Origin: a virus
DNA length: 64,000 nucleotides
Strand: one strand, 5' to 3'
IMG/VR virus record: IMGVR_UViG_3300021475_000011
Location: 1 to 64,000 of that record
The notes under the pieces are model-generated. The model saw only the letters and a list, made by a program, of their open reading frames with translations. It was not told the origin of the DNA and searched no databases. Positions 6,137-63,318 of the stretch are shown piece after piece (positions within the stretch are counted from its first letter, which is position 1; every line of letters starts with the position of its first letter). The translations under genes were made by a program, and so were the position numbers.

Positions 6137-6153
6137 TGTCAACCTCGCTTACA
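6137..6153. promoter_or_regulatory. palindromic operator O3
   Basis: TGTCA-ACCTCGC-TTACA; one mismatch. It lies between the methyltransferase hairpin and the terminase-unit promoter, immediately upstream of the minus-35 element. Confidence 0.6.
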
Positions 6154-6172
6154 GGGAGGATTTTATCCTCCC
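6154..6172 (-). terminator. hairpin after the N4/N6-methyltransferase gene
   Basis: Perfect 8-bp stem GGGAGGAT/ATCCTCCC with a three-base loop, starting one base past the stop codon at 6174. No clear U-tract, so attenuation rather than strong termination is possible. Confidence 0.5.
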
Positions 6173-6173
6173 C

Positions 6174-7487
6174 CTACAGGCCGGCGAACAGCGGCGCGGT
6201 GACACCCGACATGCGCCTGCGCACGAGCTCGACGTACTCCGGGTTCAGCTCCACGCCGAGCGCATCGCGGCCGTGAGCGACGGCAACGCCGAGCGTCGTC
6301 CCGCTGCCCGCGAAGGGGTCTATCACCAACGAGCGCCCCCCCCCGTCAGCATGTGAGCAGGTCGGCTTCCAGCCCGTCGTCTCGGCCTGCGCGGTGCCGG
6401 TCCCGTTGGAGCTGCCGAGCGTCGAGCGCTCCGTGCCGCCCGTCTGCACGCCGCCGTTGCTCTCGACCTTCCGCTTGCCGTAGCGCGAGCCGTTCCAGCC
6501 TTCGTCCTTGCGCTCGACGACGCGCGTCCACGGCGCGCCACAGCTCGAGCACGCCTGCGGGGCGCTGCCCGCCAGCACCATCGGCACGATCAGCTCCTCG
6601 GGGAACGTCGCAAAGTGCGCGTCCGGGTAGGGCCTCGTCGCCACGGTCCACACGTCGCGCTTGTTCCGCCGGCGGCTGGCAGGCGCGCTCTCGCCGCGCT
6701 CAGCGCGTTCGGTGAAGCCCTGACCATAGGGCGACTTGATCGACTGCGGGCTGTTCGGCTCGCCGTAGGTCGCCTCCTCGCTGATCGCCTCCGCGTCGTA
6801 GTAGTAGCGGTCGCTCTTGGCGAGCAGGAAAACGTGCTCGTGCGCGCTGGTCGGCCGGTCGATCACGCTCTCGGGCATCGGGTTCGGCTTGTGCCAGATG
6901 ATGTCCTTGCGGAGATACCAACCGTCTTCACGCAGCGCGAACGCGACAAGCCACGGGATGCCGAGCAAGTCCTTCGGCTTCAAGCTGCCCACGCGCAGGC
7001 CGTGGCCGGTGGCGAGCGCCGGGCGCTGCGTGTTCCGCGCGCGGCCAGGCCCGTCGATGCCGCTGCCCGGCCCGCTGTTGCCGTTGTAGGCGTTGTAGCT
7101 GTCGCCAAGGTTCAGCCACACCACGCCGTCGTCGCGCAGCACGCGCCTGACCTGCTGGAAGACGGCGACCATCTTCTCGGCGTACAGGTCAGGGGTGCGC
7201 TCGAGGCCGATCTGCTCGTCGATCCTGATGGCGCCGCACAGGCCGCAGGTGCTCGAATCCTTCATCGGCCTGACGCCCGTGATGCGGTGCCGGCGCGGCG
7301 CCTTCTGATCTTCCACGGCGCCGCCGACGCGGTGCGAGCACGCGGGGTCGCCGCCCTCCCACTCAGCGGTGCCGTAGTCGCGCAGCCCGAAGTAGGGCGG
7401 GCTCGTGATGCAGCATTGCGCGATCCCGTCGTCCAGTTCAGCCAGGCGCGCGAAGACGCTGCCCTGAAGAATCTCCCACTCGCTCAC
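6174..7487 (-). CDS. DNA N4/N6 methyltransferase (beta class order)
   Basis: 437 residues; transfers a methyl group from AdoMet to an exocyclic amine of C or A in DNA. The catalytic TSPPYFGLRDYG is at about 28-39 and the AdoMet-binding VIDPFAGSGTT at about 395, giving the motif IV-before-I order of the beta class. Two CxxC pairs (CGLC, CSSC) suggest zinc binding in the variable region. The GTG start overlaps the ASCH stop. A C9 tract (6336-6344) encodes Gly-Gly-Gly just before motif I. Confidence 0.9.
   Translation of the reverse strand: MSEWEILQGSVFARLAELDDGIAQCCITSPPYFGLRDYGTAEWEGGDPACSHRVGGAVEDQKAPRRHRITGVRPMKDSSTCGLCGAIRIDEQIGLERTPDLYAEKMVAVFQQVRRVLRDDGVVWLNLGDSYNAYNGNSGPGSGIDGPGRARNTQRPALATGHGLRVGSLKPKDLLGIPWLVAFALREDGWYLRKDIIWHKPNPMPESVIDRPTSAHEHVFLLAKSDRYYYDAEAISEEATYGEPNSPQSIKSPYGQGFTERAERGESAPASRRRNKRDVWTVATRPYPDAHFATFPEELIVPMVLAGSAPQACSSCGAPWTRVVERKDEGWNGSRYGKRKVESNGGVQTGGTERSTLGSSNGTGTAQAETTGWKPTCSHADGGGRSLVIDPFAGSGTTLGVAVAHGRDALGVELNPEYVELVRRRMSGVTAPLFAGL
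6336..6344. repeat. C9 homopolymer tract inside the methyltransferase gene
   Basis: Nine C on the plus strand, three glycine codons on the minus strand, a few residues before the AdoMet motif DPFAGSGTT. The frame is intact at this length; slippage would delete the AdoMet-binding end of the enzyme. Confidence 0.8.
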
Positions 7488-7822
7488 AGCGCGACGAACT
7501 CTACGCGCCACACCATCAGCTCGGGGTCGTACTCGCCGTTGATCCCAGCGAACGCGGCCATGAACTGACGAGGGTCGGAGAAGCCCTCCTTGCGGGCCTC
7601 GGAGAACGACAGGCGTCCGAGCGGCATCCGGCGGCACGAGGTCACGCGCGCTTCACCTATTCGCGTCACGCCGCGGCCAGGATTCACAGTGAAGACCTTG
7701 CCGGGCTGATAGGTGCAGCGCTCCCGCCACCACGGCGACCGGGGGTTGTCGCTGCACAGGCGGCGGGTGACGGTCTTCTCGCCGGCGACGACGAGCGCGG
7801 CGAGCTCGGGCTTGAAGATCAT
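7484..7822 (-). CDS. ASCH/PUA-like domain protein
   Basis: 112 residues. It opens MIFKPELAALVVAGEKTVTR, the family pattern of a strand followed by G-x-K-T-x-T-R-R, and ends in an E-x-M-V-W-R-V-E-F strand. ASCH proteins bind nucleic acids or modified bases. The ATG overlaps the C5-methyltransferase stop and the stop overlaps the N4/N6-methyltransferase start, so it is co-translated between two DNA methylases. Reading or processing a modified base is a reasonable inference. Confidence 0.85.
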   Translation of the reverse strand: MIFKPELAALVVAGEKTVTRRLCSDNPRSPWWRERCTYQPGKVFTVNPGRGVTRIGEARVTSCRRMPLGRLSFSEARKEGFSDPRQFMAAFAGINGEYDPELMVWRVEFVAL

Positions 7823-9693
7823 CGCTCGTCGAGGATCGGCAGCAGGCGCTCCACGATCGCGGCCATGACCGGCGGCGTCACGGCGTTGCCGTACTGCGCC
7901 ATCCGTTCGCGCTTGTTGCCGAGCACCTGATACTCGGACCCGTCGGTGTGGTCGGCCATGACCATCGCGCCGGCTATCTCGTGCAGCGCGAACATGCGAA
8001 AGCCGCAGTCGTCGATCGCTGCCTCCGTCCAGACGACGGCAGCGCGGTCGCGGGTCGTCAACGTCTGCACGGGTTCGCGGTCGGCGATCCCCGCGACGCC
8101 TGTGCGGTCGTAGGGCACGATCAGCGCGTGGCCGTCCTTCGTGGTGACGCTGCCCATCGCCTCGTCGTCGGCGCGGCGCGCCCAGCCGGGCGAGTAGTTG
8201 GCGAGCACGACGGCGTGGTGATAGCCGCCGGCGCGCATCGTGTGAACGGGGTCCTCGGGGTGCCGGGCGCCGCCGTTGTTCTGAAGCTCGACGACGGCCA
8301 ACGTCTCGCCCGTGCAAGCGGTCTGCGATGGCTCGTCGTGAGCGGAGCGCGGGACGCCGTGCATCCGGTTCCCCATGACGAGCGCGGGGTCCTCGTACAT
8401 CGAGCAATGAGGACTGTGCCACGGGCCAGGCGCCGCGCCGCGCGGATCGTAGGTCGCGCACTCCGAGCAGTAGGTCATCGCCGGCGCGCCCGTGACGATC
8501 GCGGCGCGCGTGGTCGTCGTCTGAGTCGGCGCCGGCGCCGTGGCGGCCGGGCGGAGCTCGACGGCGCCCATCGGCGGGACGACCATCGCTCGATCGAGCG
8601 TGCCGTGAATCGTGTCGAGCGGCTGCCGGCGGGAGTCTCGCGCGCGGTTCCCCGGCGTGCGCTCGTAGGTGTTGCCCGCCACCGGCATCACCATCGCCAT
8701 GTCGTGCCGCTGCGTGAGCGTGACGATCGGCAGCGTCAGCGGCTTCGGCTGGCCGCCCTGCAAGAGCCGGATGGCGAACGGCTCCGATTCCAGCCTCGTC
8801 AGGCCGCGCCCGATCCGGTCGCGCGTGTTGCAGGCGAGCGGGTGATGCTGCCCGCACTTGCGGCACTTCGTCGGCTTGCGGTCGCCGATCCGTTCGATGG
8901 GCAGCGTCCGGTCGATGATGCTGGCCGCCGGCGCTGCGCCCGGCAGCACCGTCCCCTTGCACGTCGGGCAGGCGTAGAGGTACTGCACGCCGTAGCGTCC
9001 CCAGCGCGGGCGGTCCACGCGCTTCCACCGCTGGCGGCCGTGGACGACCGTCTCGCAGCTCGGGCACCACGCGATCGGCTCGAAGTCGAGGTTCGGCGCG
9101 CGCAGCGTGCGCAGCCAGAACACCACGTACATGCGGTCACGCGACTGCGGCGTCGGCGGGCAGAACATCGAGTTGAGCCACACGATTTCGTGGGTGTAGC
9201 CGAGCGCGAGCATCGCCTGAAGCCACGCCTGGAACAGCCCGCCGTCGTCGCCATAGCCCCACTTGTAGGCGTCCACGACGTTCTCCACGACGATCGCCTT
9301 GTAGGGCCTGCCCTTCAACCGCTTCTGCTCAGCGAAGCGCACCACGTCCCACATCGTCGCGCGCGAGCGTTCCTGCTCGTCGTCGCCCGCGGGCCCGTCG
9401 TCGAACAGCGACGACCGCTGCGGCTTCTGGCGGCGCGCGCCCTTCGCCAAGCTGTGATTCGTACACTCGGGCGAGGCGAGCAGGATGTCGCTGTCGGGGT
9501 AGCGCCTGATGCGGTTCGTGGTCAGGCTGGCGATGTCCTCGCACTCGTGGTCGGCGTGCTGGAAGTTCTCGCTGTGCGTTTCGATCGCGCGCTGCCAGTG
9601 GTTCAGGCCAAGGCGCAGCGTGCCGCCCGCCAGCTCGAAGCCCAAGCTCGAGCCGCCGGCGCCGCAGAACAGGTCGGTCGCGGTGACGCTCAT
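7819..9693 (-). CDS. dcm-like: DNA cytosine C5-methyltransferase
   Basis: 624 residues, long for the family. Motif I is DLFCGAGGSSLGFE near the N-terminus. The catalytic loop reads SPECTNHS rather than the usual PCQ, still with a cysteine. Motif VI is VVENVVDAYKWG and motif VIII QSRDRMYVVF. The C-terminal VLGNKRERMAQYGNAVTPPV is the family end motif. A central insert of about 300 residues holds several C-x2-C pairs (CPSC, CPTC, CRKC). Start and stop are coupled to the HTH and ASCH genes. It probably modifies phage DNA against restriction. Confidence 0.88.
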   Translation of the reverse strand: MSVTATDLFCGAGGSSLGFELAGGTLRLGLNHWQRAIETHSENFQHADHECEDIASLTTNRIRRYPDSDILLASPECTNHSLAKGARRQKPQRSSLFDDGPAGDDEQERSRATMWDVVRFAEQKRLKGRPYKAIVVENVVDAYKWGYGDDGGLFQAWLQAMLALGYTHEIVWLNSMFCPPTPQSRDRMYVVFWLRTLRAPNLDFEPIAWCPSCETVVHGRQRWKRVDRPRWGRYGVQYLYACPTCKGTVLPGAAPAASIIDRTLPIERIGDRKPTKCRKCGQHHPLACNTRDRIGRGLTRLESEPFAIRLLQGGQPKPLTLPIVTLTQRHDMAMVMPVAGNTYERTPGNRARDSRRQPLDTIHGTLDRAMVVPPMGAVELRPAATAPAPTQTTTTRAAIVTGAPAMTYCSECATYDPRGAAPGPWHSPHCSMYEDPALVMGNRMHGVPRSAHDEPSQTACTGETLAVVELQNNGGARHPEDPVHTMRAGGYHHAVVLANYSPGWARRADDEAMGSVTTKDGHALIVPYDRTGVAGIADREPVQTLTTRDRAAVVWTEAAIDDCGFRMFALHEIAGAMVMADHTDGSEYQVLGNKRERMAQYGNAVTPPVMAAIVERLLPILDER

Positions 9694-10145
9694 GCGATCG
9701 GCCCATGCTCGACGCACTCGTTCAGCGCATCGAGGCGCGAGCCGAAGTCGCGGGCGGCCAAGTCGATCATGCTCTTGCCCTCCCACAGCATCACGTCGCC
9801 GCCCTCCAAGTGCGTGATCCGGCGGCGGCCGTCAGCGTCGATCGCGCGCACGAGCACGATCACGCCCTGCGGCTGCCAGCCGTCCGGCAGGGCCTCGGAC
9901 AGTTCGACGCCCAGCACGAGGGGATGGCGCTGCTCCTGCACGGTCATCGGAAGCAGGTCGGCCAAGTCGCACCGCACGCGCCGCGCGACGCCGATCAGCG
10001 CCTCGACGGTGATGGCCTGCTTGCCAGCCTCGATGTTCGTAACGGCTGTGCGACTGAGGCCCAGCGCTTCCCCGAGCTCGGCCTGCGTCAGCCCGGCGCG
10101 CCGGCGCTGCTCACGGACGCGCTCGCCGATGACCTTGCTCATCAT
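9690..10145 (-). CDS. Xre-family HTH regulator with C-terminal domain
   Basis: 151 residues. A Cro/C1-type helix-turn-helix (RRRAGLTQAELGEALGLSRT, then AVTNIEAGKQ) fills residues about 5-60. A C-terminal segment of about 85 residues lacks a recognised fold. The start overlaps the upstream stop (ATGATGA). It precedes the methylase cluster directly, so it may regulate methylase expression or the operator network in this window; both are inference. Confidence 0.8.
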   Translation of the reverse strand: MMSKVIGERVREQRRRAGLTQAELGEALGLSRTAVTNIEAGKQAITVEALIGVARRVRCDLADLLPMTVQEQRHPLVLGVELSEALPDGWQPQGVIVLVRAIDADGRRRITHLEGGDVMLWEGKSMIDLAARDFGSRLDALNECVEHGPIA

Positions 10146-11346: not shown

Positions 11347-12344
11347 TGCCACGCGGGGATGCTGAACGCGATCGGTGTGGTGGCGCTCGACGGTGCGTAG
11401 CCAGCGCCGCCGGCGTAGCTGGCCGTCAGGGTCGTGGTGCCAGCTTCGACGGTGGCGATCGGCAGGTCCAGCGTGTTGCCCGTCGCGGGCGCGATGTTCA
11501 CCGACTGCGGGTAGTAGGCGAACTCGCCGAGCTGCCCGTCGTAGTTGCCGCGCGTGGCGATGACCGTCACCTTCAGGCTGCCTTCGAGCTGCACGCCGCC
11601 GGCGGTCACGACCGGCGCGCCGGGCGCCTGGTGGCCGTTGACGGTGGTGTGCGCGGTCACGGTCAGCGTGCCCGCGAGCGCCCATGTGTGGCCGTCGCCG
11701 TCGTAGCCTTCGATGCTCGGAGCAGGCAGCGCCGTGTAGGTCGCTTCGACGGTCGTGGTGGTGGTGAACGGTTCGATCTGCTCGACGCTCGTTTCGGTGA
11801 CGGTCGTTTCACCTGACGAGTAGGTGACGACGACGGTGTGCGCGCCGGTCGCCTGGTAGGTGACAGGGCAGGTGCCGCCTTCGACGCCGTTGCCGACGTT
11901 GATGCTGCACTCCAACGTGCCGTCGCTGTAGAGCGTCAGCACGCCTTCGGGGAGCGGCTGCGCGCCGTGTTCGTCGAACGCGCCGGCGTCGTAGCTGTAG
12001 GTCACGGCCAGCGGGTTCGAGGGGTCCTGCGTGAACGACGGGTCGAGCTTCGCGCGGAGCTTGTGAGCGGGCGCGGCCGGTGCGGCGGCGGCAGGCGTGG
12101 CGCCCGCCGGCGTCGTGCCGATGCAGTCGAAGTGCTTGACGTGGGTCACGACCATGACCGGGACGCGGTGGCCGTGGACGCGGTGGTAGACCGTCCTCAG
12201 CTTGCCGTGGACGCGGTGCGTCTTCGGGCGCTTGACGGTGACGGTCGTGATCTTGCAGCCGGCTGCCGGTGCTACACCGTAGTTTGTAGCACCTGCGAGT
12301 GTGGCGAGAGCGGCGAGTGAGAGTGTCTTTATGGAAGTGGTCAT
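11343..12344 (-). CDS. secreted Ig-like/Big-repeat protein
   Basis: 333 residues. An N-terminal signal-peptide-like segment (MTTSIKTLSLAALATLAGA) is followed by a His/Arg/Val-rich stretch (KTHRVHGKLRTVYHRVHGHR) and an Ala/Pro linker. Two or more beta-sandwich repeats follow (VTYSYDAGAF..., LAGTLTVTAHTTVNGHQAPG, TTTLTASYAGGAGY) of bacterial Ig-like type. It looks exported and surface- or wall-associated rather than a standard phage gene. It is driven by promoter A and operator O4 and starts with the shared MTTS codons. Confidence 0.75.
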   Translation of the reverse strand: MTTSIKTLSLAALATLAGATNYGVAPAAGCKITTVTVKRPKTHRVHGKLRTVYHRVHGHRVPVMVVTHVKHFDCIGTTPAGATPAAAAPAAPAHKLRAKLDPSFTQDPSNPLAVTYSYDAGAFDEHGAQPLPEGVLTLYSDGTLECSINVGNGVEGGTCPVTYQATGAHTVVVTYSSGETTVTETSVEQIEPFTTTTTVEATYTALPAPSIEGYDGDGHTWALAGTLTVTAHTTVNGHQAPGAPVVTAGGVQLEGSLKVTVIATRGNYDGQLGEFAYYPQSVNIAPATGNTLDLPIATVEAGTTTLTASYAGGAGYAPSSATTPIAFSIPAWQ

Positions 12345-12350
12345 GGGTAC

Positions 12351-12402
12351 AGCATCGCAACCTCGCGGGGGATTGTCAAGGCGGGTGACACCCTACTGGA
12401 CG
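12351..12402 (-). promoter_or_regulatory. promoter A with upstream CGTCCAG box
   Basis: Minus strand: CGTCCAG (12396-12402), 16 bases, TTGACA (12374-12379), 17-bp spacer, GATGCT (12351-12356), six bases to the ATG at 12344. The transcript is probably leaderless. Operator O4 includes the minus-35 hexamer. Confidence 0.7.
12374..12390. promoter_or_regulatory. palindromic operator O4
   Basis: TGTCA-AGGCGGG-TGACA, a perfect match to the consensus. It covers the minus-35 hexamer of promoter A, so a bound protein would block RNA polymerase. Confidence 0.7.
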
Positions 12403-12442
12403 GATGATCTACCGGGCGCCCGACACGCTGGCCGGGCGCCCC

Positions 12443-12467
12443 GGTCAAATCTGACCGGCGCCGGTCA
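12443..12467 (-). terminator. dyad cluster at the 3' end of the 3D-domain gene
   Basis: A perfect 16-base palindrome TGACCGGCGCCGGTCA (12452-12467) overlaps the stop codon. A second dyad GGTCA/TGACC (12443-12456) is nested beside it, with two GGGCGCC direct copies further on. Probable termination zone before promoter A; no U-tract. Confidence 0.4.
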
Positions 12468-12854
12468 GCGGCGCATCACCGTGAAGCCCCTGCGCTGCCT
12501 GCCGTACTCGTCGCAGGCGGCTTCGCTCGGGTTGTAGATGTCCAGTTCGGACCCTGACCCGATGTGATCCTCGACCTGATAGACCGACCGCCCGAACGCC
12601 GGACGATCGAGCCTGATCCACGCGCCGAGCGGCAGGAACCCCGGCAGCACAGCCACGATGCCGGGCCTCGTCTGCTCGCCGCTCGCCGTGGTCCCCGACT
12701 GCGCATAGCAGGTGGATTCCACGGTGTAGTGCTGAGCTGCCTGGTGATGATGGTGATGGTGCGCGCCGGCAGCGTGCGCAGGGGTGAAGGCCGCGATCAG
12801 CGCGGCGAATAGAAGTCGGACGGTGCCGCTCCTTTCCTCGGTTCGCCGCACCAC
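12465..12854 (-). CDS. secreted 3D-domain (double-psi barrel) protein
   Basis: 129 residues if it starts at GTG 12854; the exact start is uncertain because the best ribosome site (AAAGGAG) lies just downstream. A signal-like segment RLLFAALIAAFTPAHAAGA is followed by six histidines, then a 3D-type barrel (YAQSGTTASGEQTRPGIVAV, PLGAWIRLD, YQVEDHIGSGSELDIY). 3D domains occur in peptidoglycan-active lytic enzymes. The two Asp/Glu positions EDH and LDIY are retained. Probably exported and wall-acting. Confidence 0.75.
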   Translation of the reverse strand: MVRRTEERSGTVRLLFAALIAAFTPAHAAGAHHHHHHQAAQHYTVESTCYAQSGTTASGEQTRPGIVAVLPGFLPLGAWIRLDRPAFGRSVYQVEDHIGSGSELDIYNPSEAACDEYGRQRRGFTVMRR

Positions 12855-16437: not shown

Positions 16438-17024
16438 GAGCGAACACGAACCGACATCGTGGCGGCCATCTGCGCCTCGCTGCCGTCCTCGAAGACCACG
16501 CGGACCCTGCGGTGGATGCGCTCGGTCGAGGCGATCGTGCGCCACTCGCCGTCGTGGCGAATCGTCAGGCCCGAGTACAGCTCGTTGGCGTCCATCGGCT
16601 TCACGGGCGGCTTCGTCACGACCTCATCCCACGGGTACTGACGGGCGAGCGAGGCGACGTGCAGCGCTTCGCGGTCGTACTCGTCGGCCAGCTCGGCAGG
16701 CGCCGGCGGGATGCAGCCACGGTGGCGAGCATCCACGCGCAGGACTGCCTCCGTGCGGACCTGCTCGTCGGTCGGCTGCTCGCGGCCGGCGCTCAAGAGC
16801 CAGCCCTGCCCGTCGTAGGTGGCGCCACAGCCGGCGCAGGTGTGGGTCTGCTCGCCGCCGAACGGCACGTCCTCGATCGTCGCGCCGCATGTGCAGTCGT
16901 AGCTTCCGTTGGCGCGCTGACCCTGCGGGACGTTGCGGTCGCGGTGCCAGGCGAGCTTCTTCACTTCGATGGTGACGGGAGCGGTGGCGCTCATGGTGTG
17001 GTCCTCTCGGGTGGAAGTGGTCAT
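16434..17024 (-). CDS. zinc-ribbon protein of the MTTS promoter family
   Basis: 196 residues if read from ATG 17024. A second in-frame ATG at 16994 has a GAGAGG ribosome site and may also be used. A four-cysteine zinc ribbon (CTCGATIEDV... CAGCGATYDG) lies near residue 45-75. A C-terminal strand-rich part (LTIRHDGEWRTIASTERIHR) follows. It is controlled by promoter C and operator O5. No family recognised. Confidence 0.65.
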   Translation of the reverse strand: MTTSTREDHTMSATAPVTIEVKKLAWHRDRNVPQGQRANGSYDCTCGATIEDVPFGGEQTHTCAGCGATYDGQGWLLSAGREQPTDEQVRTEAVLRVDARHRGCIPPAPAELADEYDREALHVASLARQYPWDEVVTKPPVKPMDANELYSGLTIRHDGEWRTIASTERIHRRVRVVFEDGSEAQMAATMSVRVRS

Positions 17025-17040
17025 GTCAACTATGGTGACA
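17024..17040. promoter_or_regulatory. palindromic operator O5
   Basis: TGTCA-ACTATGG-TGACA, a perfect match. It overlaps the ATG at 17024 and the minus-10 region of promoter C. Confidence 0.7.
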
Positions 17041-17463: not shown

Positions 17464-17765
17464 CAGCGGTTCTCGATCGAGCGGAGCTCGCCGCCGGCGT
17501 CGGTGAAGCGGCCAAGGCGTCGGGCCGACTCGCCGTTGCCGCGTAGCAGGTTGCCGGGGAGCGCGTGCAGGATGGTCGGGTCGTCGCGGTGGCGCATCAG
17601 CAGGAACTCGGCGCCGCGCTTGCCCGTGAGCAGGTAGGGCAGCTCGGCGGCTGTGCTCTCGCCCTCGCGGCTGGTCACGGTGTACTCACGCGGGCTGAGC
17701 GTGTGCGAGTCCTTCACGACGACGATGCTGGTAGCTGCTGTGTGGTGATCCGTGGAAGTAGTCAT
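17463..17765 (-). CDS. small MTTS-family protein, unknown function
   Basis: 100 residues from ATG 17765, starting MTTSTDHHTAATSIVVVKDS. No other suitable start exists, which supports leaderless initiation at this ATG. It has an alternating strand/loop sequence with no known domain. Promoter D and operator O6 lie directly upstream. Confidence 0.6.
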   Translation of the reverse strand: MTTSTDHHTAATSIVVVKDSHTLSPREYTVTSREGESTAAELPYLLTGKRGAEFLLMRHRDDPTILHALPGNLLRGNGESARRLGRFTDAGGELRSIENR

Positions 17766-17781
17766 GTCAAGCATGGTGACA
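17765..17781. promoter_or_regulatory. palindromic operator O6
   Basis: TGTCA-AGCATGG-TGACA, a perfect match. It overlaps the ATG at 17765 and the minus-10 region of promoter D. Confidence 0.7.
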
Positions 17782-17819: not shown

Positions 17820-18164
17820 CTACTCGGGCAGCTCGGGGACCTCAACCGCATAGATGTCGTCGATGGGCAGGAACATCAGCGGCTCGCCATCGACCTCGAG
17901 CACCATCCCACCGTGCTCGTACCTGACGATCTGGCCGGGCACCACGTCGAGCGGCAACTGTTCGCCGTGCTTGCCCTTGCGGGAGCCGACGGCCAGCACG
18001 ATCGCGCGGCGTTCCTCTTCGCGGACGGTCGCCGGCAGGTGCAGGCCGCTCGCGCGCTGCGGCGGCGGCACGGGCTTGACGATGATCCGCGGGCCCATGA
18101 CCTCGATCACGGCGCTGCCCGTCGGGCGGTCGGTGCTGGCGACGGCTGTGGTGTGCTCGCTCAT
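17820..18164 (-). CDS. groES-like: GroES-like co-chaperonin
   Basis: 114 residues, close to the usual size of about 97 plus a short N-terminal extension. The fold pattern is clear: IIVKPVPPPQRASGLHLPAT is the first strand plus mobile loop. It is followed by AIVLAVGSRKGK, PLDVVPGQIVRYEHGGMVLE and a C-terminal DDIYAVE. Phage GroES homologues (T4 gp31, RB49 CocO) retarget host GroEL for capsid folding. No GroEL partner is present, so host GroEL would be used. The ATG overlaps the upstream stop (ATGA). Confidence 0.85.
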   Translation of the reverse strand: MSEHTTAVASTDRPTGSAVIEVMGPRIIVKPVPPPQRASGLHLPATVREEERRAIVLAVGSRKGKHGEQLPLDVVPGQIVRYEHGGMVLEVDGEPLMFLPIDDIYAVEVPELPE

Positions 18165-18277
18165 ACGATCGCGCTCCACAGGTGAACACAGCCGGCGATG
18201 GTCGCCGTGACGGCCAGCGCCGCTATGCAGCCCACCACGACGTAGGCGAGCGCGACGCCGGCCTTCTCGCTGGTCAC
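18161..18277 (-). CDS. 38-residue single-span membrane protein
   Basis: Starts at a GTG overlapping the preceding stop (GTGA) and ends on the GroES ATG (ATGA). Almost the whole chain is one hydrophobic helix (VALAYVVVGCIAALAVTATI). It could be a small holin-like or inner-membrane peptide; no family assigned. Confidence 0.55.
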   Translation of the reverse strand: MTSEKAGVALAYVVVGCIAALAVTATIAGCVHLWSAIV

Positions 18278-19656: not shown

Positions 19657-20435
19657 ACGAACGACCTGCGCTGCTGCTTGCGGGCGAGCGCCACGCGGTC
19701 GAGCCGTTCGTGCAGCGCGGCGACCGACAGGAAGTCCTCTAGTTCGCCGACGCCGCGCTCGACTTCGCCGGGGGTGCCGTCGGCGTGCAGGTGCAGCAGC
19801 TCCGTGTGGCAGACGGCGAAGCCGGTCAGCTCGAGGTAGGCGGCGGCGTAGGCGGCGACCTGAATGTGGGCGCTGTCGTAGATCGCCTTGCTCGTCTTCG
19901 CGTCGCCGAGCACGAGGCCACCACAGCCACAGGTGCAGCTCCGCAGATAGTCGAACGTGCCGGCGTAGCGGTGCGCCAGGCTGATGATCGGGACCTCCGT
20001 CGAATGGAACACGGGGCGCGTGTCGAGGACCCAACCGGCAAGGCTCTGATGGAAAGGCCGCTCGACCTCGGGCAGCTCGTGGAACGGTGGCGGCCCGTCG
20101 TCGCCGGCGTACATCGTCAGCGCCTCGTGGACGTTCGTGCCGCGCAGCGCGGCTTCGTCGCGCAGGTCGATCGGCCGGACCTTCTTCTCGGCCAGGTACA
20201 TGACCGCCTCCTCGGCGGTGGAGAAGAACACGCCGTCGTTGTTCATGGCGACCATCGCCTCGACGGTGCGCGTGAAGGCCCACCACGTCAGGGCCTCGGA
20301 CTTGTCGATGACGCCCAATATCTTCGTGACGCTCGGCAGCGTGAAGCTCTCGACGCCGGCGGCTGTGTGGACGGTGTAAGCGTGCTTGACGGGCTCGAAG
20401 TCCACCACCACGTCGCCGTAGCGCACAGTCTTCAC
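19653..20435 (-). CDS. PD-(D/E)XK exonuclease, Cas4/RecB-like
   Basis: 260 residues. The nuclease core is visible: RGTNVHEALT (catalytic His), STEVPIISLAHRYAGTFD (Asp), LGDAKTSKAIYDSAHIQVAA (D-x-K and the QxxxY motif). It acts on DNA ends, probably making ssDNA for the Rad52-type annealing protein encoded 2 kb upstream. The GTG start overlaps the stop of the small frameshifted gene. Confidence 0.82.
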   Translation of the reverse strand: MKTVRYGDVVVDFEPVKHAYTVHTAAGVESFTLPSVTKILGVIDKSEALTWWAFTRTVEAMVAMNNDGVFFSTAEEAVMYLAEKKVRPIDLRDEAALRGTNVHEALTMYAGDDGPPPFHELPEVERPFHQSLAGWVLDTRPVFHSTEVPIISLAHRYAGTFDYLRSCTCGCGGLVLGDAKTSKAIYDSAHIQVAAYAAAYLELTGFAVCHTELLHLHADGTPGEVERGVGELEDFLSVAALHERLDRVALARKQQRRSFV

Positions 20436-23458: not shown

Positions 23459-23765
23459 CGGGCGCTGCCTCCTGTAGATCGGTGGTGGTCGGGACGGTCC
23501 CGAAGGGGATGTGAAAGAAGCGCTCAAGCATGACGGCGAGCAGGCCGATCGTTTCGAGCAGCGGCAGCTCGCAGCGCGCGATGTGCCGGGCCTCGTCGCG
23601 GCCGTAGTCGAGGCCGCGCTGCCACGCCTTTGCAAAGCGCTCGGGGTCCATGTGCAGCAGCGCGTTCAGCGGATTGGCGCCGCGCTTCTCGCACTCCGCG
23701 CAGCCATCGCGCAAGAGCTGGTCGGGGTGAAAGCCGGGCAGCTCCTCGTGGTAGTCGTGGGCCAC
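23451..23765 (-). CDS. first gene of the recombination unit, unknown function
   Basis: 104 residues from the GTG at 23765, chosen because operator O7 abuts it. Helical with a CAECEKRG pair and a hydrophobic helix (LPLLETIGLLAVMLERFF). No family recognised. Confidence 0.6.
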   Translation of the reverse strand: MAHDYHEELPGFHPDQLLRDGCAECEKRGANPLNALLHMDPERFAKAWQRGLDYGRDEARHIARCELPLLETIGLLAVMLERFFHIPFGTVPTTTDLQEAAPDG

Positions 23766-23781
23766 GTCAAGCAGCCTGACA
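23765..23781. promoter_or_regulatory. palindromic operator O7
   Basis: CGTCA-AGCAGCC-TGACA; one mismatch. It overlaps the GTG at 23765 and lies between a strong terminator and the recombination genes. Confidence 0.6.
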
Positions 23782-24755: not shown

Positions 24756-24782
24756 TCAGCGGCGAGTAGTGGAAGTGGTCAT
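24756..24782 (-). CDS. 8-codon MTTSTTRR leader ORF
   Basis: ATG-led ORF reading MTTSTTRR then TGA, seven bases downstream of the promoter B minus-10. The first codons match those of three other genes behind the same promoter type. The next gene's GTG follows the stop after three bases, so translation may be reinitiated. Either a relic of a copied promoter-plus-start cassette or a functional leader. Confidence 0.5.
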   Translation of the reverse strand: MTTSTTRR

Positions 24783-24789
24783 GCCCTGC

Positions 24790-24840
24790 ATCCTGCCAGC
24801 CGATCAGACGGGTGTCAAGGGACTTGTCGCGGACTGGACG
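24790..24840 (-). promoter_or_regulatory. promoter B with upstream CGTCCAG box
   Basis: Minus strand: CGTCCAG (24834-24840), 15 bases, TTGACA (24813-24818), 17-bp spacer, CAGGAT (24790-24795), seven bases to ATG 24782. It is embedded in the 3' end of the upstream replication gene. Confidence 0.65.
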
Positions 24841-25502
24841 GATGACGTATCGAGCTGGCGCAGGCCACCGCTGCGAAGCTGCGCGCGGCGCGGGCGCGGC
24901 GCCTCCAACTCCGCGCGATCAACGCCGGCGAGCGCGAGCTGCTGATCCTCGATCGAGCGCCGGCGCAGCGCCAGATAGCTTTCGCGCTCCTGCGCCCGGA
25001 ACGTGGCGATCCCCCCGCCGCCACGCAGCGCATCGCGCCACGCTGCCCGCCTGGTCCTCGTCATCCACTCGTCGATCAGCGGGTGCGACCATGCGCTCGG
25101 CTTACGGATACGACTCGGCCGACACTCACAATCCGCCGTGGTCGTCGCCGCCGTGGTGGTCGTGACCTCCACGAACCCGCTGCCGTCGCAGCGCTTCAGC
25201 GGACAGTCACCCTCGAACGCCGCCGGCATCGGCAGCAGCACACGGCCTTCGACCTCGACAAGCACCTGATCCCACTCCGGGGTCGGAGACGCCAGCTCGA
25301 GCGCACGGGCCGCGATCATGCCGCCCGTCGGCGGGTGCTCACGGCCAGCGGTGGCGAAGCTCAGCACGACCGCCGTAGCGGTGTCAGCGGCGACACCCTC
25401 GACGAGCGGGAACTGCACCGCTGCCGCCTCGACCGGGATTGGTGCGTGCGGCCACAGGCCACGCATCCGGGCGACGAGCTCGGTCCACTCGCTCGGCTTC
25501 AT
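24804..25502 (-). CDS. putative replication accessory protein
   Basis: 232 residues. The N-terminal half (PSEWTELVARMRGLWPHAPI, then ARALELASPTPEWDQVLVEV) resembles helicase-loader or inhibitor proteins that follow replisome organisers in phages. A zinc-like CPLKRCDGSGF...CECRPS site and a charged helical tail follow. It is coupled to the replisome organiser by ATGA. Helicase loading is inference from position and pattern. Confidence 0.6.
   Translation of the reverse strand: MKPSEWTELVARMRGLWPHAPIPVEAAAVQFPLVEGVAADTATAVVLSFATAGREHPPTGGMIAARALELASPTPEWDQVLVEVEGRVLLPMPAAFEGDCPLKRCDGSGFVEVTTTTAATTTADCECRPSRIRKPSAWSHPLIDEWMTRTRRAAWRDALRGGGGIATFRAQERESYLALRRRSIEDQQLALAGVDRAELEAPRPRRAQLRSGGLRQLDTSSVQSATSPLTPV
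24813..24829. promoter_or_regulatory. palindromic operator O8 (degenerate)
   Basis: TGTCA-AGGGACT-TGTCG; two mismatches. It covers the minus-35 of promoter B, as O4 does in promoter A. Confidence 0.5.
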
Positions 25503-26365
25503 TCGCCGCGCGCCCGCTGCTCGTCGGCGATCCGCTGCAAGGCGTCCATGTCAGACCCCGCTCGCTCCCGCGCCGAGCCACCGGCGCGCTTGCCTTCGAC
25601 CTCCTGCCTGATCTGCAAGACGAGAGGCGCCCACTTTTCGCGGAGCTTCGGCATCGACCGGATGTTCGCTGCCCAAAAGTGGTGAGAGGTCGCCCATGTG
25701 ATGACGTATTCAACCTGCCGGACAGAAGCGCCGTCAAGGTCAAGCAGCCGCCTTGCCGCATCGTGCCACTTTTTCGTGTGTGGATTCGGCCGAGGCCCAC
25801 CGGCGCCCTGCGCCTCCAAGGCGTCAGCGAGCAGGTCGCAGAGCTTGGCGACCTCCGGGCGATCGACGGCGAGCTCGTCTTGATCGTGGTCGTCTTCGCC
25901 CTGGTCGCCGTCGGGCGGCACGACCGACGAAACCCCCGCAGGGGGTAGTTCCTCTTCCCTTCCCTTCCCTTCCCTTCCCCCCTGTAGTGCTACAGGAGGA
26001 CTACTGTAGTCGTCTCGTATCGACCCCTCAGCGCCGGGCGGCGGCAGCTTCGATTTGGTCGGCTTCTGGATCGCCTGGTGCTTGTTGAAGTTGGTCACAT
26101 GCAGGTACTTTTGACCGCCGTGGACGTAGCGCGTGATGGCGCCCGTCGAGGCGATCAGCGAGAGCCACAGGTCCACTTCGTCGGCGGTCACGTCGTCGTC
26201 GTAGGGGAACACGTTGGACTTGACGACGTGCGGTCGGCCGCGCTGGCGGCCCTCGTCGTCCGAGTGTTGGATCAGGCCAATGAACAGCAGCCGGCAGTCG
26301 CGTGGGAGAGCGCCGATCGCCTCGTCTTCCCACAACTCCGGCTTGATAGTCCTGATCCTCGCCAC
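25499..26365 (-). CDS. replisome organiser-like replication protein
   Basis: 288 residues from GTG 26365 (GAGGGAG ribosome site). The N-terminus ARIRTIKPELWEDEAIGALP, then RLLFIGLIQHSDDEGRQRGR, is typical of phage replisome-organiser winged-helix domains. The longer open frame to 26527 lacks homology-like sequence. A low-complexity linker contains five tandem TTCCC units (25955-25979). The C-terminal helical part fits a DnaD-like or initiator role. It should recognise the origin and recruit host helicase. Confidence 0.75.
   Translation of the reverse strand: MARIRTIKPELWEDEAIGALPRDCRLLFIGLIQHSDDEGRQRGRPHVVKSNVFPYDDDVTADEVDLWLSLIASTGAITRYVHGGQKYLHVTNFNKHQAIQKPTKSKLPPPGAEGSIRDDYSSPPVALQGGREGKGREEELPPAGVSSVVPPDGDQGEDDHDQDELAVDRPEVAKLCDLLADALEAQGAGGPRPNPHTKKWHDAARRLLDLDGASVRQVEYVITWATSHHFWAANIRSMPKLREKWAPLVLQIRQEVEGKRAGGSARERAGSDMDALQRIADEQRARGE
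25955..25979. repeat. (TTCCC)x5 microsatellite
   Basis: Five tandem TTCCC copies inside the linker of the replisome-organiser gene, reading Gly-Arg-Glu-Gly-Lys on the minus strand. A 14-base dyad (CTGTAG-TG-CTACAG) follows at 25982-25995. Iteron-like clusters near replication initiators can mark origins; here the period of five and coding location make slippage more likely. Confidence 0.6.
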
Positions 26366-26504
26366 CGCTGCTCCCTCGTCCTGCGAGGCGATGGCGTCCG
26401 TCTCACCGGATAGCTTCTCGTGCTCGCAACTCTGATCGGTGGCGAAACCTAGCGCGCGGCGTGGACACGTTCCCGTCGCGCGCTGCTTGTTCCGGGGTTT
26501 TTCT

Positions 26505-26747
26505 TCAGGCGGCCACGCGCTCGTCAAGCAGCTCGTAGAGCGCCTGACGGCTGATCCCGAGGCGACGTGCAGCCTCAGTGATCGTGACGGCCTCCTTGTC
26601 GTGCGGGTCGGCCTGCGCCTTCACCTGCTTGACCACTTCGCGGGTAAGCTCCTGCAACGCCGCGTCGTTCTCGTCTCGCAGTTCACGGCGGACCCCGATC
26701 CGGTCGAGCTGCTGTCGTAGGTCTACTGCGGCCACGGTGCTCTCCAC
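26505..26747 (-). CDS. small HTH protein, candidate regulator
   Basis: 80 residues from the GTG at 26747. The C-terminal third, AVTITEAARRLGISRQALYE, is a compact Fis/resolvase-type helix-turn-helix; the N-terminal half is helical and may dimerise. The start codon directly abuts O9, a degenerate operator copy, suggesting autoregulation. It is transcribed away from the plus-strand RusA pair and ahead of the replication genes. Proposed, not shown, to bind the repeated palindrome. Confidence 0.7.
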   Translation of the reverse strand: MESTVAAVDLRQQLDRIGVRRELRDENDAALQELTREVVKQVKAQADPHDKEAVTITEAARRLGISRQALYELLDERVAA

Positions 26748-26764
26748 TGTCGGGTTACTTGTCG
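26748..26764. promoter_or_regulatory. palindromic operator O9 (degenerate)
   Basis: TGTCG-GGTTACT-TGTCG, with three mismatches, but it shares most positions with O8 and directly abuts the HTH gene GTG. Two further TGTCAA half-sites lie nearby on the minus strand (about 26774-26780 and 26804-26810). Confidence 0.4.
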
Positions 26765-26803
26765 TCCTCCATCTTGACAGGTCCAGCGGCGGCGTCGCCC
26801 TGG

Positions 26804-26832
26804 TTGACAGTCCATCCGGCGCGCAGGCTACC
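26804..26832 (+). promoter_or_regulatory. possible plus-strand promoter of the RusA pair
   Basis: TTGACA (26804-26809), 17-bp spacer, GCTACC. It is the only plus-strand consensus minus-35 ahead of the GTG at 26845; the minus-10 is poor. Confidence 0.4.
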
Positions 26833-26844
26833 GTCGGGATACCA

Positions 26845-27096
26845 GTGTCCGACTCGATCTACGACGCACCGAATCCTGACGCGCCCGAGCAGCAGCCGGC
26901 CTTCGTCCTACAGCGCCCGCCCGGCCAGCGCTCGAACCTCGCGCATCTGCTGTGGGCCACGCTCGTCGCCGTGCTGCTGTTCTTCGCGCTGTGCTCGGCC
27001 GTCGCCGGCGGCGCGCTGCTCGGCGGTGTCGGCGGCGCGCTGCTCGCGCTCGCGGTGAGCCTCGCCTACGTTGCGCACCTGATCGACTCAGCCTGA
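26845..27096 (+). CDS. small two-span membrane protein
   Basis: 83 residues from GTG 26845. Polar N-terminus (VSDSIYDAPNPDAPEQQPAF), then two adjoining hydrophobic helices (LLWATLVAVLLFFALCSAV and GGVGGALLALAVSLAYVAHL). Possibly a holin, antiholin or superinfection protein. It precedes RusA by two bases on the strand opposite to nearly everything else. Confidence 0.6.
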   Translation: MSDSIYDAPNPDAPEQQPAFVLQRPPGQRSNLAHLLWATLVAVLLFFALCSAVAGGALLGGVGGALLALAVSLAYVAHLIDSA

Positions 27097-27098
27097 CC

Positions 27099-27518
27099 GT
27101 GCTCGAGCTGGTCCTGCCGTTCAAGCCCGTGCCCTGCGAGCGCGCGCGATCGAACCGTGGGATCGTCCACGACACGCCACGCAACCGCGCTGTGAAGGCC
27201 CACATCGCGCGGCTGTGGCAGATCACCCACCACGGCGTCTCGCCGATCCCAGCGGGCCGCCCTGTGATGCTGACCCTCGACTTCAGGTTCGAGCGCCCGG
27301 CAAAGCATTGGGTCGCCGGGCGCAAGGGCGGCGAGCTCCGCGCCGACGCGCCGCGCTGGCACACGAACAAGCCCGACGCGGACAACCTCGAAAAGCTCGT
27401 GAAGGACGGCCTGAACAAGATCGCGTGGGCCGACGACGCGCAGGTCGCGGTCGTGCGCAAGCAGAAGACGTGGACCGCCGGCGAGAGCTGCACCATCCTG
27501 ACGGTGCGCGAGCTGTAG
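27099..27518 (+). CDS. rusA: RusA-type Holliday junction resolvase
   Basis: 139 residues from GTG 27099, near the family norm of about 120. The signature NKPDADNLEKLVKDGLNKIA followed by WADDAQVAVVRKQKTW carries the conserved Asp residues that bind metal at the active site. It resolves four-way junctions left by recombination and so pairs logically with the Rad52-like and exonuclease genes, although it reads in the opposite direction. The terminator at 27521-27563 follows. Confidence 0.88.
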   Translation: MLELVLPFKPVPCERARSNRGIVHDTPRNRAVKAHIARLWQITHHGVSPIPAGRPVMLTLDFRFERPAKHWVAGRKGGELRADAPRWHTNKPDADNLEKLVKDGLNKIAWADDAQVAVVRKQKTWTAGESCTILTVREL

Positions 27519-50736: not shown

Positions 50737-51052
50737 TGAGTCCTCCAGTTATCGGCATGGGTGAACAGCCGACCCCTGGATGACCTCAATGGGAGCTTGC
50801 CGTGCGCAGTACGGTGGCCGCGCGCAGTAGCTCAGGCCGAGTCGCTTCTTGTGCGTCGCAGATTACCACCGGCCCGGACGGAACCGACGAGTCGTTTCAC
50901 CGTCGCGTAAAACGTGAAACATCGCCGGCGGCGACCGGGGCGGCTGTTAGCTTGCGCGCGTCAAGCGGCGGGCGCCGTGCTCGCCTCGAAGTGCAGCCGC
51001 AGGTCGAAGCTCGAAGGGCATCCTCCGCGCGCCGCACAGAATGGAGGAAGTC
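50737..51052. other. 316-bp gap upstream of the capsid and cold-shock genes
   Basis: No minus-strand gene. It carries the inverted repeat at 50894-50920 and, on the plus strand, the leader and probable promoter of the cold-shock gene. For the minus strand it is the spacer before the capsid gene; no strong promoter pair seen. Confidence 0.6.
50894..50920. promoter_or_regulatory. inverted repeat upstream of the cold-shock gene
   Basis: Perfect GTTTCAC-N13-GTGAAAC dyad about 130 bp upstream of the csp ATG. It could be an operator or a leader hairpin. It resembles GTTTCC/GGAAAC dyads elsewhere in this window. Confidence 0.45.
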
Positions 51053-51256
51053 ATGCCCACGGGCAAGGTCAAGTGGTTCAGCGACGAGAAGGGCTTTGGG
51101 TTCATCACGCCCGACGACGGCGGGAAGGACTTGTTCGTCCACCACAGCGGCATCAACGCCGAGGGCCACCGCACGCTGAACGAGGGCGCGGCCGTCAGCT
51201 TCGACTCGGAGCAGGGCGCGAAGGGTCCGAAGGCCGTCAACGTGGTGGCGCTCTAG
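51053..51256 (+). CDS. csp: cold-shock domain protein
   Basis: 67 residues from ATG 51053 (GGAGG ribosome site). Near-canonical CspA fold: [20 protein letters not shown] contains RNP1 (KGFGFI), and [10 protein letters not shown] contains RNP2. It binds single-stranded RNA/DNA and melts secondary structure. It is the only plus-strand gene inside the structural region, so it is an independently expressed moron-like insertion. It ends near a shared hairpin. Confidence 0.95.
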
Positions 51257-58758: not shown

Positions 58759-58775
58759 TGTCAGGCAGTTTGACA
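58759..58775. promoter_or_regulatory. palindromic operator O10
   Basis: TGTCA-GGCAGTT-TGACA, a perfect match, 23 bases upstream of the ATG at 58735 and just after a strong terminator. Confidence 0.7.
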
Positions 58776-59597: not shown

Positions 59598-59614
59598 TGT
59601 CAGGACGCTTGACG
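59598..59614. promoter_or_regulatory. palindromic operator O11
   Basis: TGTCA-GGACGCT-TGACG; one mismatch. On the minus strand a TACGAT minus-10-like box follows, so the operator would lie in the promoter spacer; the ATG is at 59575. Confidence 0.6.
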
Positions 59615-60459: not shown

Positions 60460-60476
60460 TGTCACCCATGTTGACA
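60460..60476. promoter_or_regulatory. palindromic operator O12
   Basis: TGTCA-CCCATGT-TGACA, a perfect match, one base before the ATG at 60458. Confidence 0.7.
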
Positions 60477-63301: not shown

Positions 63302-63318
63302 TGTCAGGTGAGTTTACA
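63302..63318. promoter_or_regulatory. palindromic operator O13
   Basis: TGTCA-GGTGAGT-TTACA; one mismatch; abuts ATG 63301. The TTACA half includes the stop codon of the upstream gene. It shares 16 of 17 bases with O2. Confidence 0.6.

Follow-up and report, generated by a model that had tools for sequence, protein, structure and literature searches.

In Cluster A mycobacteriophages such as L5 and TipsytheTRex, many copies of one site are spread over promoters and short intergenic gaps and are served by one small phage regulator, as passages of the published work describe; the L5 sites are given there as asymmetric 13-mers, bound by a 183-residue monomer with two domains (PMC9283540). Cluster K phages offer another arrangement, in which the SAS, non-palindromic 13-mers, lie a few bases before start codons and are confined to the non-structural half of the genome, accompanied by ESAS, which are 17-bp inverted repeats with a variable spacer between their halves (PMC3203893). 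Dispersed repeats that hug start codons are known in actinobacterial phages, and the passages on SAS call their role possibly translational and name no regulator or binder (PMC3203893).

Here we describe a 17-bp palindrome, TGTCA-N7-TGACA, that is dispersed over a phage genome and also occurs, together with a gene for a small helix-turn-helix (HTH) protein, in insertion sequences (IS) of the IS1595 family. The IS comparison points to a single small protein and a single site of 17 bp, which makes binding and repression testable. As in Cluster A, so far as the passages on stoperators allow the comparison, the phage has many dispersed copies in promoters and short gaps; unlike there, the sites are 17-bp palindromes and the candidate regulator, HTH80, is an 80-residue protein with one HTH. 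The core of the L5 site is TGTCAAG, and in stoperator systems the bound repressor halts elongating RNA polymerase. Among the part of the phage gene calls that was scanned, no two-domain repressor of about 183 residues was seen, and in the open-licence PMC literature we found nothing that pairs an HTH80-type protein with the 17-bp site. The system can be seen as a dispersed phage operator network that uses an insertion-sequence-type operator and probably a binder likewise of the IS type.

A 17-bp palindrome family at starts of non-structural genes

The window (the whole stretch of DNA analysed, 64,000 nt) comprises bases 1–64000 of a 67,533-base IMG/VR virus record, at 68% GC. An independent contig of the same phage (G004; L009, L012), 99.995% identical over 21.3 kb, extends the record by 5,409 bases. 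The phage record has 82 gene calls, made by a script of our own and not by a trained gene finder, nearly all of them on the minus strand; recognisable among them are genes for terminase, major head protein, portal, tape measure, head-tail adaptor and lysozyme. The host is probably a member of the Solirubrobacterales, because the phage cold-shock protein is nearest in sequence to proteins of that order: nearly all of the best 80 genome loci for it are titled as Solirubrobacterales or related Thermoleophilia, or as Actinobacteria in general. The cold-shock gene itself (51041–51256, plus strand) lies within the structural block.

Within the window, TGTCA-N7-TGACA is present in 5 exact copies and 6 copies with one mismatch, versus 0.0 and 0.5 expected from 20 Markov-3 simulations, and the enrichment is specific to the 7-bp spacer, as all other spacers from 0 to 19 give at most 2. 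Palindromes with two mismatches are mostly noise (15 observed, 11.5 expected). Beyond the window there are three further copies, at 65020, 67047 and, on the added bases, 68595. A symmetric matrix built from the 14 phage sites and scanned over 72,926 positions (the extended record of about 73 kb) gives them leave-one-out scores of 17.6–22.0; they are followed by 20375 (17.1), 24813 (12.9), 26793 (12.8) and 26763 (12.4). The sites of the window outside the HTH80 region are the following (unstranded):

260–276, operator, 1 mismatch; abuts a minus-strand GTG
1890–1906, operator, 1 mismatch; its final A is the A of ATG
6137–6153, operator, 1 mismatch; after the GGGAGGAT hairpin, with GATAAT-N6-ATG downstream
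12374–12390, operator, exact; TTGACA-N17-GATGCT-N6-ATG on the minus strand
17024–17040, operator, exact; overlaps ATG
17765–17781, operator, exact; overlaps ATG
20375–20391, probable operator, 2 mismatches; in a gene, near its start; rank 15 with the phage matrix, 16 with the IS matrix
23765–23781, operator, 1 mismatch; overlaps GTG
24813–24829, probable operator, 2 mismatches; TTGACA-N17-CAGGAT-N7-ATG; rank 16 with the phage matrix, 15 with the IS matrix
58759–58775, operator, exact; ATG 23 nt further on
59598–59614, operator, 1 mismatch; ATG 22 nt further on
60460–60476, operator, exact; ATG 1 nt further on
63302–63318, operator, 1 mismatch; directly before ATG, contains TAAACT

Most of the sites are at gene starts. 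When start codons that open at least 60 codons are counted and random positions are drawn outside the structural block, a minus-strand start codon lies no more than 3 nt from the site end in 8 of the 14 sites (versus 10% of random positions), and a start codon lies within 40 nt in 12 of them (versus 46%). The structural block, at about 26.8–58.7 kb, contains no site scoring at least 15 bits, and by our own arithmetic the chance of finding none there for 14 randomly placed sites is about 0.0003. In both the nearness to starts (3 nt or less in those eight) and the empty structural block the phage resembles Cluster K as the passages on SAS and ESAS portray it; unlike SAS, the phage site is palindromic and has no non-palindromic 13-bp core. 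Several sites coincide with promoter-like elements as well. The layout at 12374, where an operator arm supplies the TTGACA, is that of a leaderless promoter; the spacing at 24813 and 65020 is similar, with -10 hexamers that are poorer by eye, and a -10-like TAAACT, again by eye, is present in four TGTAAACT sites.

Some features near these sites are worth recording in their own right. Strong hairpins at 6154–6172 and 12441–12468, just upstream on the minus strand of operators 6137 and 12374, are likely terminators ahead of new transcription units. Four minus-strand gene or peptide starts (12332–12344, 17012–17024, 17753–17765 and 24770–24782) have ATGACCACTTCCA or ATGACTACTTCCA in common, encoding MTTS..., and two of the four are preceded by TCATCCGTCCAG (12396, 24834); this start module is thus repeated, and the operator stands at two different distances from it. 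A GroES-like co-chaperonin gene (PF00166, E 5.2e-10) lies at 17820–18179.

Relatives of the phage by terminase (45–47%) are without the palindrome family, with a single one-mismatch site in 87 kb. No exact match turned up for the composite TGTCA-N7-TGACATGACNACTTC, and a search for TGTAAACTCNCCTGACA matched 18 stretches, in which the family was seen only in two from the same phage contig, while the others look like chance. Seven Solirubrobacterales-type genomes hold 0–3 exact palindromes each in 3.2–9.3 Mb versus 5 in the 67.5 kb of the phage, and for these seven genomes a host regulon built on the palindrome is therefore ruled out.

HTH80 and the divergent gap

The preliminary description had reported an 80-residue HTH gene and, divergent from it, a plus-strand pair that includes RusA, and we find both in place, the HTH gene on the minus strand with a GTG start:

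26505–26747, minus strand, HTH80, 80-residue HTH protein, GTG start; proposed operator-binding regulator
25499–26365, minus strand, replication initiation protein, the next gene after HTH80; inferred start; phrog_2149, E 1.7e-37
26845–27096, plus strand, small ORF divergent from HTH80, GTG start at 26845; no family
27099–27518, plus strand, RusA-like Holliday junction resolvase; inferred start; PF05866, E 1.4e-16, and phrog_140, E 1.2e-22
26748–26764, unstranded, degenerate operator copy TGTCGGGTTACTTGTCG; 8.5 bits, rank 23 with the phage matrix, 19 with the IS matrix
26763–26779, unstranded, operator copy with 2 arm mismatches, TTGACA on the plus strand at 26774; 12.4 bits, rank 18 (IS matrix rank 21)
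26793–26809, unstranded, operator copy with 2 arm mismatches, TTGACA on the plus strand at 26804; 12.8 bits, rank 17 (IS matrix rank 29)

The HTH of HTH80 is C-terminal. It matches PF02954 (HTH_8) with 22.0 bits, exactly at the cut-off of 22 and over just 17 residues (E 1.4e-4), and phrog_686 with E 1.2e-4; an alternative start is possible at GTG 26735, preceded by GGAGAG, instead of 26747. A single-sequence structure model (pLDDT 76.9, pTM 0.40) predicts a helical N-terminus followed by the C-terminal HTH. This arrangement is similar to that of the Fis/HTH_8 family, to which the Pfam match is borderline and short, but the low-pTM model gave no Foldseek match among solved (PDB) structures. Close sequence relatives of HTH80 are absent from viral contigs and, at a useful E-value, from named phages. 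The replication initiator has tblastn matches in Streptomyces and Gordonia phages, and in the loci read no HTH80-like gene stands in front of related initiators. Between the HTH80 and initiator genes there is an imperfect inverted repeat at 26451–26484.

The degenerate copy TGTCGGGTTACTTGTCG noticed earlier beside the HTH start does adjoin it: 26748–26764 touches the GTG, abutting a start codon as other operators do, and, counted by eye, it shares 10 of its 17 letters with 58759–58775. Operator-like DNA is thus present in the gap as the preliminary description held, although the copy it singled out is the weakest of the three there. At the scores of 26793, 26763 and 26748, 15 simulations lead one to expect 0.7, 1.1 and 6.1 sites per 73 kb, so that 26748 taken alone is marginal, with equally good sites expected at 0.008 per 98 bp. 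The copies at 26763–26779 and 26793–26809 stand 30 bp apart, and what had been counted as three elements, two TGTCAA half-sites and a plus-strand TTGACA, reduces to two, at 26774 and 26804, read from opposite strands. The gap is a real but weak operator cluster, of which 26748 is the least certain member, and HTH80's own operators are weaker than nearly all other sites in the phage. A sigma-70 scan of the gap found no promoter-like site and no clear -35/-10 pair.

Co-occurrence of the palindrome and a small HTH gene in IS1595 elements

A search with HTH80 of 232 genomes from the likely host order gave 13 weak matches. Six of these are one family of small proteins encoded behind an IS1595-family transposase (PF12762, E 7.7e-37), and all six loci have two palindrome copies, 27–28 bp apart, just before the transposase; the palindrome is absent from the remaining seven, which are TetR-like or unclear. 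A profile search yielded seven further family loci at E < 1e-15 (L114–L120). Four of them (L115, L117, L118, L120) are additional IS1595 elements with the palindrome, and the three without an intact IS1595 transposase (L114, L116, L119) lack it, as do two weaker matches (L121 and L122, the latter also without an intact IS1595 transposase) and all 15 unrelated HTH loci (L123–L137). A wider search for the HTH family gave 3 weak matches, without palindromes, in 396 genomes of the phylum; in the class it matched 12 of 399 genomes, all of them genomes from the earlier order-level profile search.

To separate regulator from transposase we compared 30 IS1595 loci drawn from a search for the transposase, which had matches in 55 of the 232 genomes. 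The palindrome, with at most one mismatch, is found in all 10 loci that have a downstream small-HTH gene, paired in nine of them, and in 0 of 20 related loci that have no such gene. This pattern does not simply follow transposase closeness, because the six HTH-less transposases of L143–L148 resemble the query more closely (63–68% identity) than do five HTH-bearing ones (56–59%). A tree of these 30 transposases shows three switches of the HTH trait, all on well-supported branches, and in each of the three independent pairs the palindrome switches with it, although three contrasts give a sign-test p of 0.25 and leave significance out of reach. In the 14 of the 20 HTH-less elements examined for it, there is no second conserved small gene downstream. 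Some HTH-less elements (L143–L148, L159, L160–L162) have different inverted repeats within the 60 bases that precede the transposase (GTGTGAG...GTCACAC; ACGTACGT).

In all 10 HTH-bearing loci a TTGACA-N17/18-TANNNT (TTGGCA in one) ends 6–11 nt short of the transposase start. The first palindrome supplies, with its right arm, the -35 of this IS promoter, and the second palindrome spans the -10. This is the layout of an autorepressor, since a protein sitting on both palindromes would close the promoter and the HTH gene lies behind the transposase in the same orientation. The transposase was considered as the binder and ruled out, the 20 related HTH-less elements being without the palindrome and the phage without a transposase.

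The two operator sets can be compared directly. When a matrix built from 19 distinct IS operators, with zero phage sequence, was scanned over 72,942 bp, its 14 best positions were the 14 phage sites, and the next were 24813 and 20375. The phage record has no IS1595 transposase and the palindromes are rare in host genomes, which leaves the small HTH protein as the partner common to phage and IS. An HMM built on the first six IS proteins, with the phage excluded, was run on 1007 phage ORF fragments; HTH80 came top (E 2.8e-6), followed by a protein encoded at 71894–72325 of the extended record (E 0.047). The latter (L012:621-1052) is a small GPGRPR-type HTH-like protein without a Pfam match. The recognition helix reads SRQALYELL in HTH80 and SRQGVYDLL in most of the IS proteins, and each letter that differs occurs at that position in some member of the IS-type family; in viral contigs the pattern SRQ[GA][VL]Y[DE][LVA]L matched 16 stretches.

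The likeness of HTH80 to the IS proteins lies in the HTH motif alone, at residues 51–80. Any homology can be argued for the HTH at most, because the N-terminal 50 residues add nothing to the score (it is undiminished when they are shuffled, 78 of 200 shuffles being at or above it) and because TetR-type HTHs score similarly (21–34 bits) with a related profile, A1, that includes HTH80. A common architecture, in which a long helix is followed by an HTH that ends the protein, is suggested by the single-sequence model (pTM 0.40). The phage and the IS elements have in common the 17-bp operator and a protein of 65–80 residues whose extreme C-terminal end is an HTH with an SRQ-x-x-Y recognition helix. 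They differ in that the N-terminal halves of the IS proteins have no detectable similarity to HTH80, and in that the IS have two operators 27–28 bp apart on one promoter and an HTH gene that follows the transposase.

Candidate binders and a proposed mode of control

We consider it fairly probable that HTH80 is the regulator of the phage-wide TGTCA-N7-TGACA operators, most likely as a repressor that would also control its own gene. The other candidate within the window is a more familiar type of protein:

9690–10145, minus strand, Xre/Cro-type HTH protein; PF01381, E 1.9e-12; overlaps a C5 methyltransferase gene

If this Xre protein were the operator-binding repressor, HTH80 would be encoded beside weak sites by chance, and we think this distinctly unlikely. 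The Xre protein has a clear lambda/P22-type HTH, with phmmer matches to P22 C2 repressor chains and a structure model that is poor outside the HTH, and this class usually binds 14–18-bp palindromes as dimers. But its gene has no operator nearby, it may serve the methyltransferase module that it overlaps, and the IS elements that share the palindrome encode an HTH80-like protein and no Xre, which is also not among the matches listed for the IS-HTH HMM. The earlier preference for the HTH protein over Xre as the binder thus gains strong, if indirect, support from the pairing in IS1595 elements. The Xre gene belongs to a stretch (6174–10145) in which it is followed, after the overlapping C5 cytosine methyltransferase gene, by an N4/N6 methyltransferase gene, possibly a modification module with its own regulator. 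It is unlikely, too, that the palindromes are read by some other phage or host protein, for example a host IS regulator or the 71894–72325 protein outside the window. The likely host order does have IS HTH proteins, whose operator matrix also suits the sites in the phage, and the 71894–72325 protein is second on the HMM list; however, HTH80 is a far better match than this second candidate, and HTH-bearing IS are found in only some genomes of the order, so that a phage regulon depending on them would be fragile.

Two further readings concern what the sites do. The palindromes might act mainly on RNA or translation, in the manner of Cluster K SAS, as a 5-bp hairpin or a landmark at the start codon. 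The SAS-like placement, with eight sites touching a start codon, would suit this, but other sites fall on -35-like hexamers 22–40 nt upstream, the IS palindromes fall on -35 and -10, and the symmetry suits a dimeric DNA-binding protein; we regard this reading as very improbable. A search for a known RNA at the site found no Rfam match anywhere in the 64-kb window. The preliminary description had also cast the HTH protein as a phage switch regulator. Its role as palindrome binder is now strongly, though indirectly, supported by the sequence comparison with IS1595, and the lysis-lysogeny part of the claim is not supported. With its small HTH gene and three operator copies, the divergent gap does recall a CI- or Cro-like regulator between divergent promoters. 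However, the 67.5-kb record, which may be a fragment, has no tyrosine (PF00589) or serine (PF00239) recombinase, and, unlike in the lambda CI/Cro switch, the divergent partner is a small ORF with RusA and not a second regulator sharing operators, while the sites, at least 14, are dispersed at non-structural genes. We give a classic switch almost no credence.

To return to HTH80 as the regulator, it is predicted to have a long N-terminal helix and a C-terminal HTH and probably binds as a dimer. We favor repression because the operators at non-structural genes sit on the start codon or on core promoter elements, where bound HTH80 would block RNA polymerase. Strong operators stand singly at non-structural genes of the phage, and a weak cluster stands at the regulator gene. 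The three weak gap copies would allow HTH80, once its level is high, to damp the operon that it forms with the replication initiator; plentiful HTH80 would damp the divergent RusA operon through the same copies. That HTH80 is encoded directly ahead of the replication initiator fits control of replication genes.

In its mode of action the HTH80-operator pair probably resembles the autoregulator that a group of Solirubrobacterales IS1595-family elements would have, which suggests that transposon and phage may share one regulatory code and that cross-silencing is possible. It is tempting to speculate further that the phage runs its non-structural genes on an IS repressor-operator code that has passed between IS1595-type elements and phage, and we put this forward as a tentative idea that may well be wrong. 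If a code had been passed in this way, host IS HTH proteins could silence the phage as it enters, and host transposases could in turn be silenced by the phage protein. IS1595 copies with the palindrome code do occur in viral contigs, two of which hold further HTH-bearing elements with palindromes.
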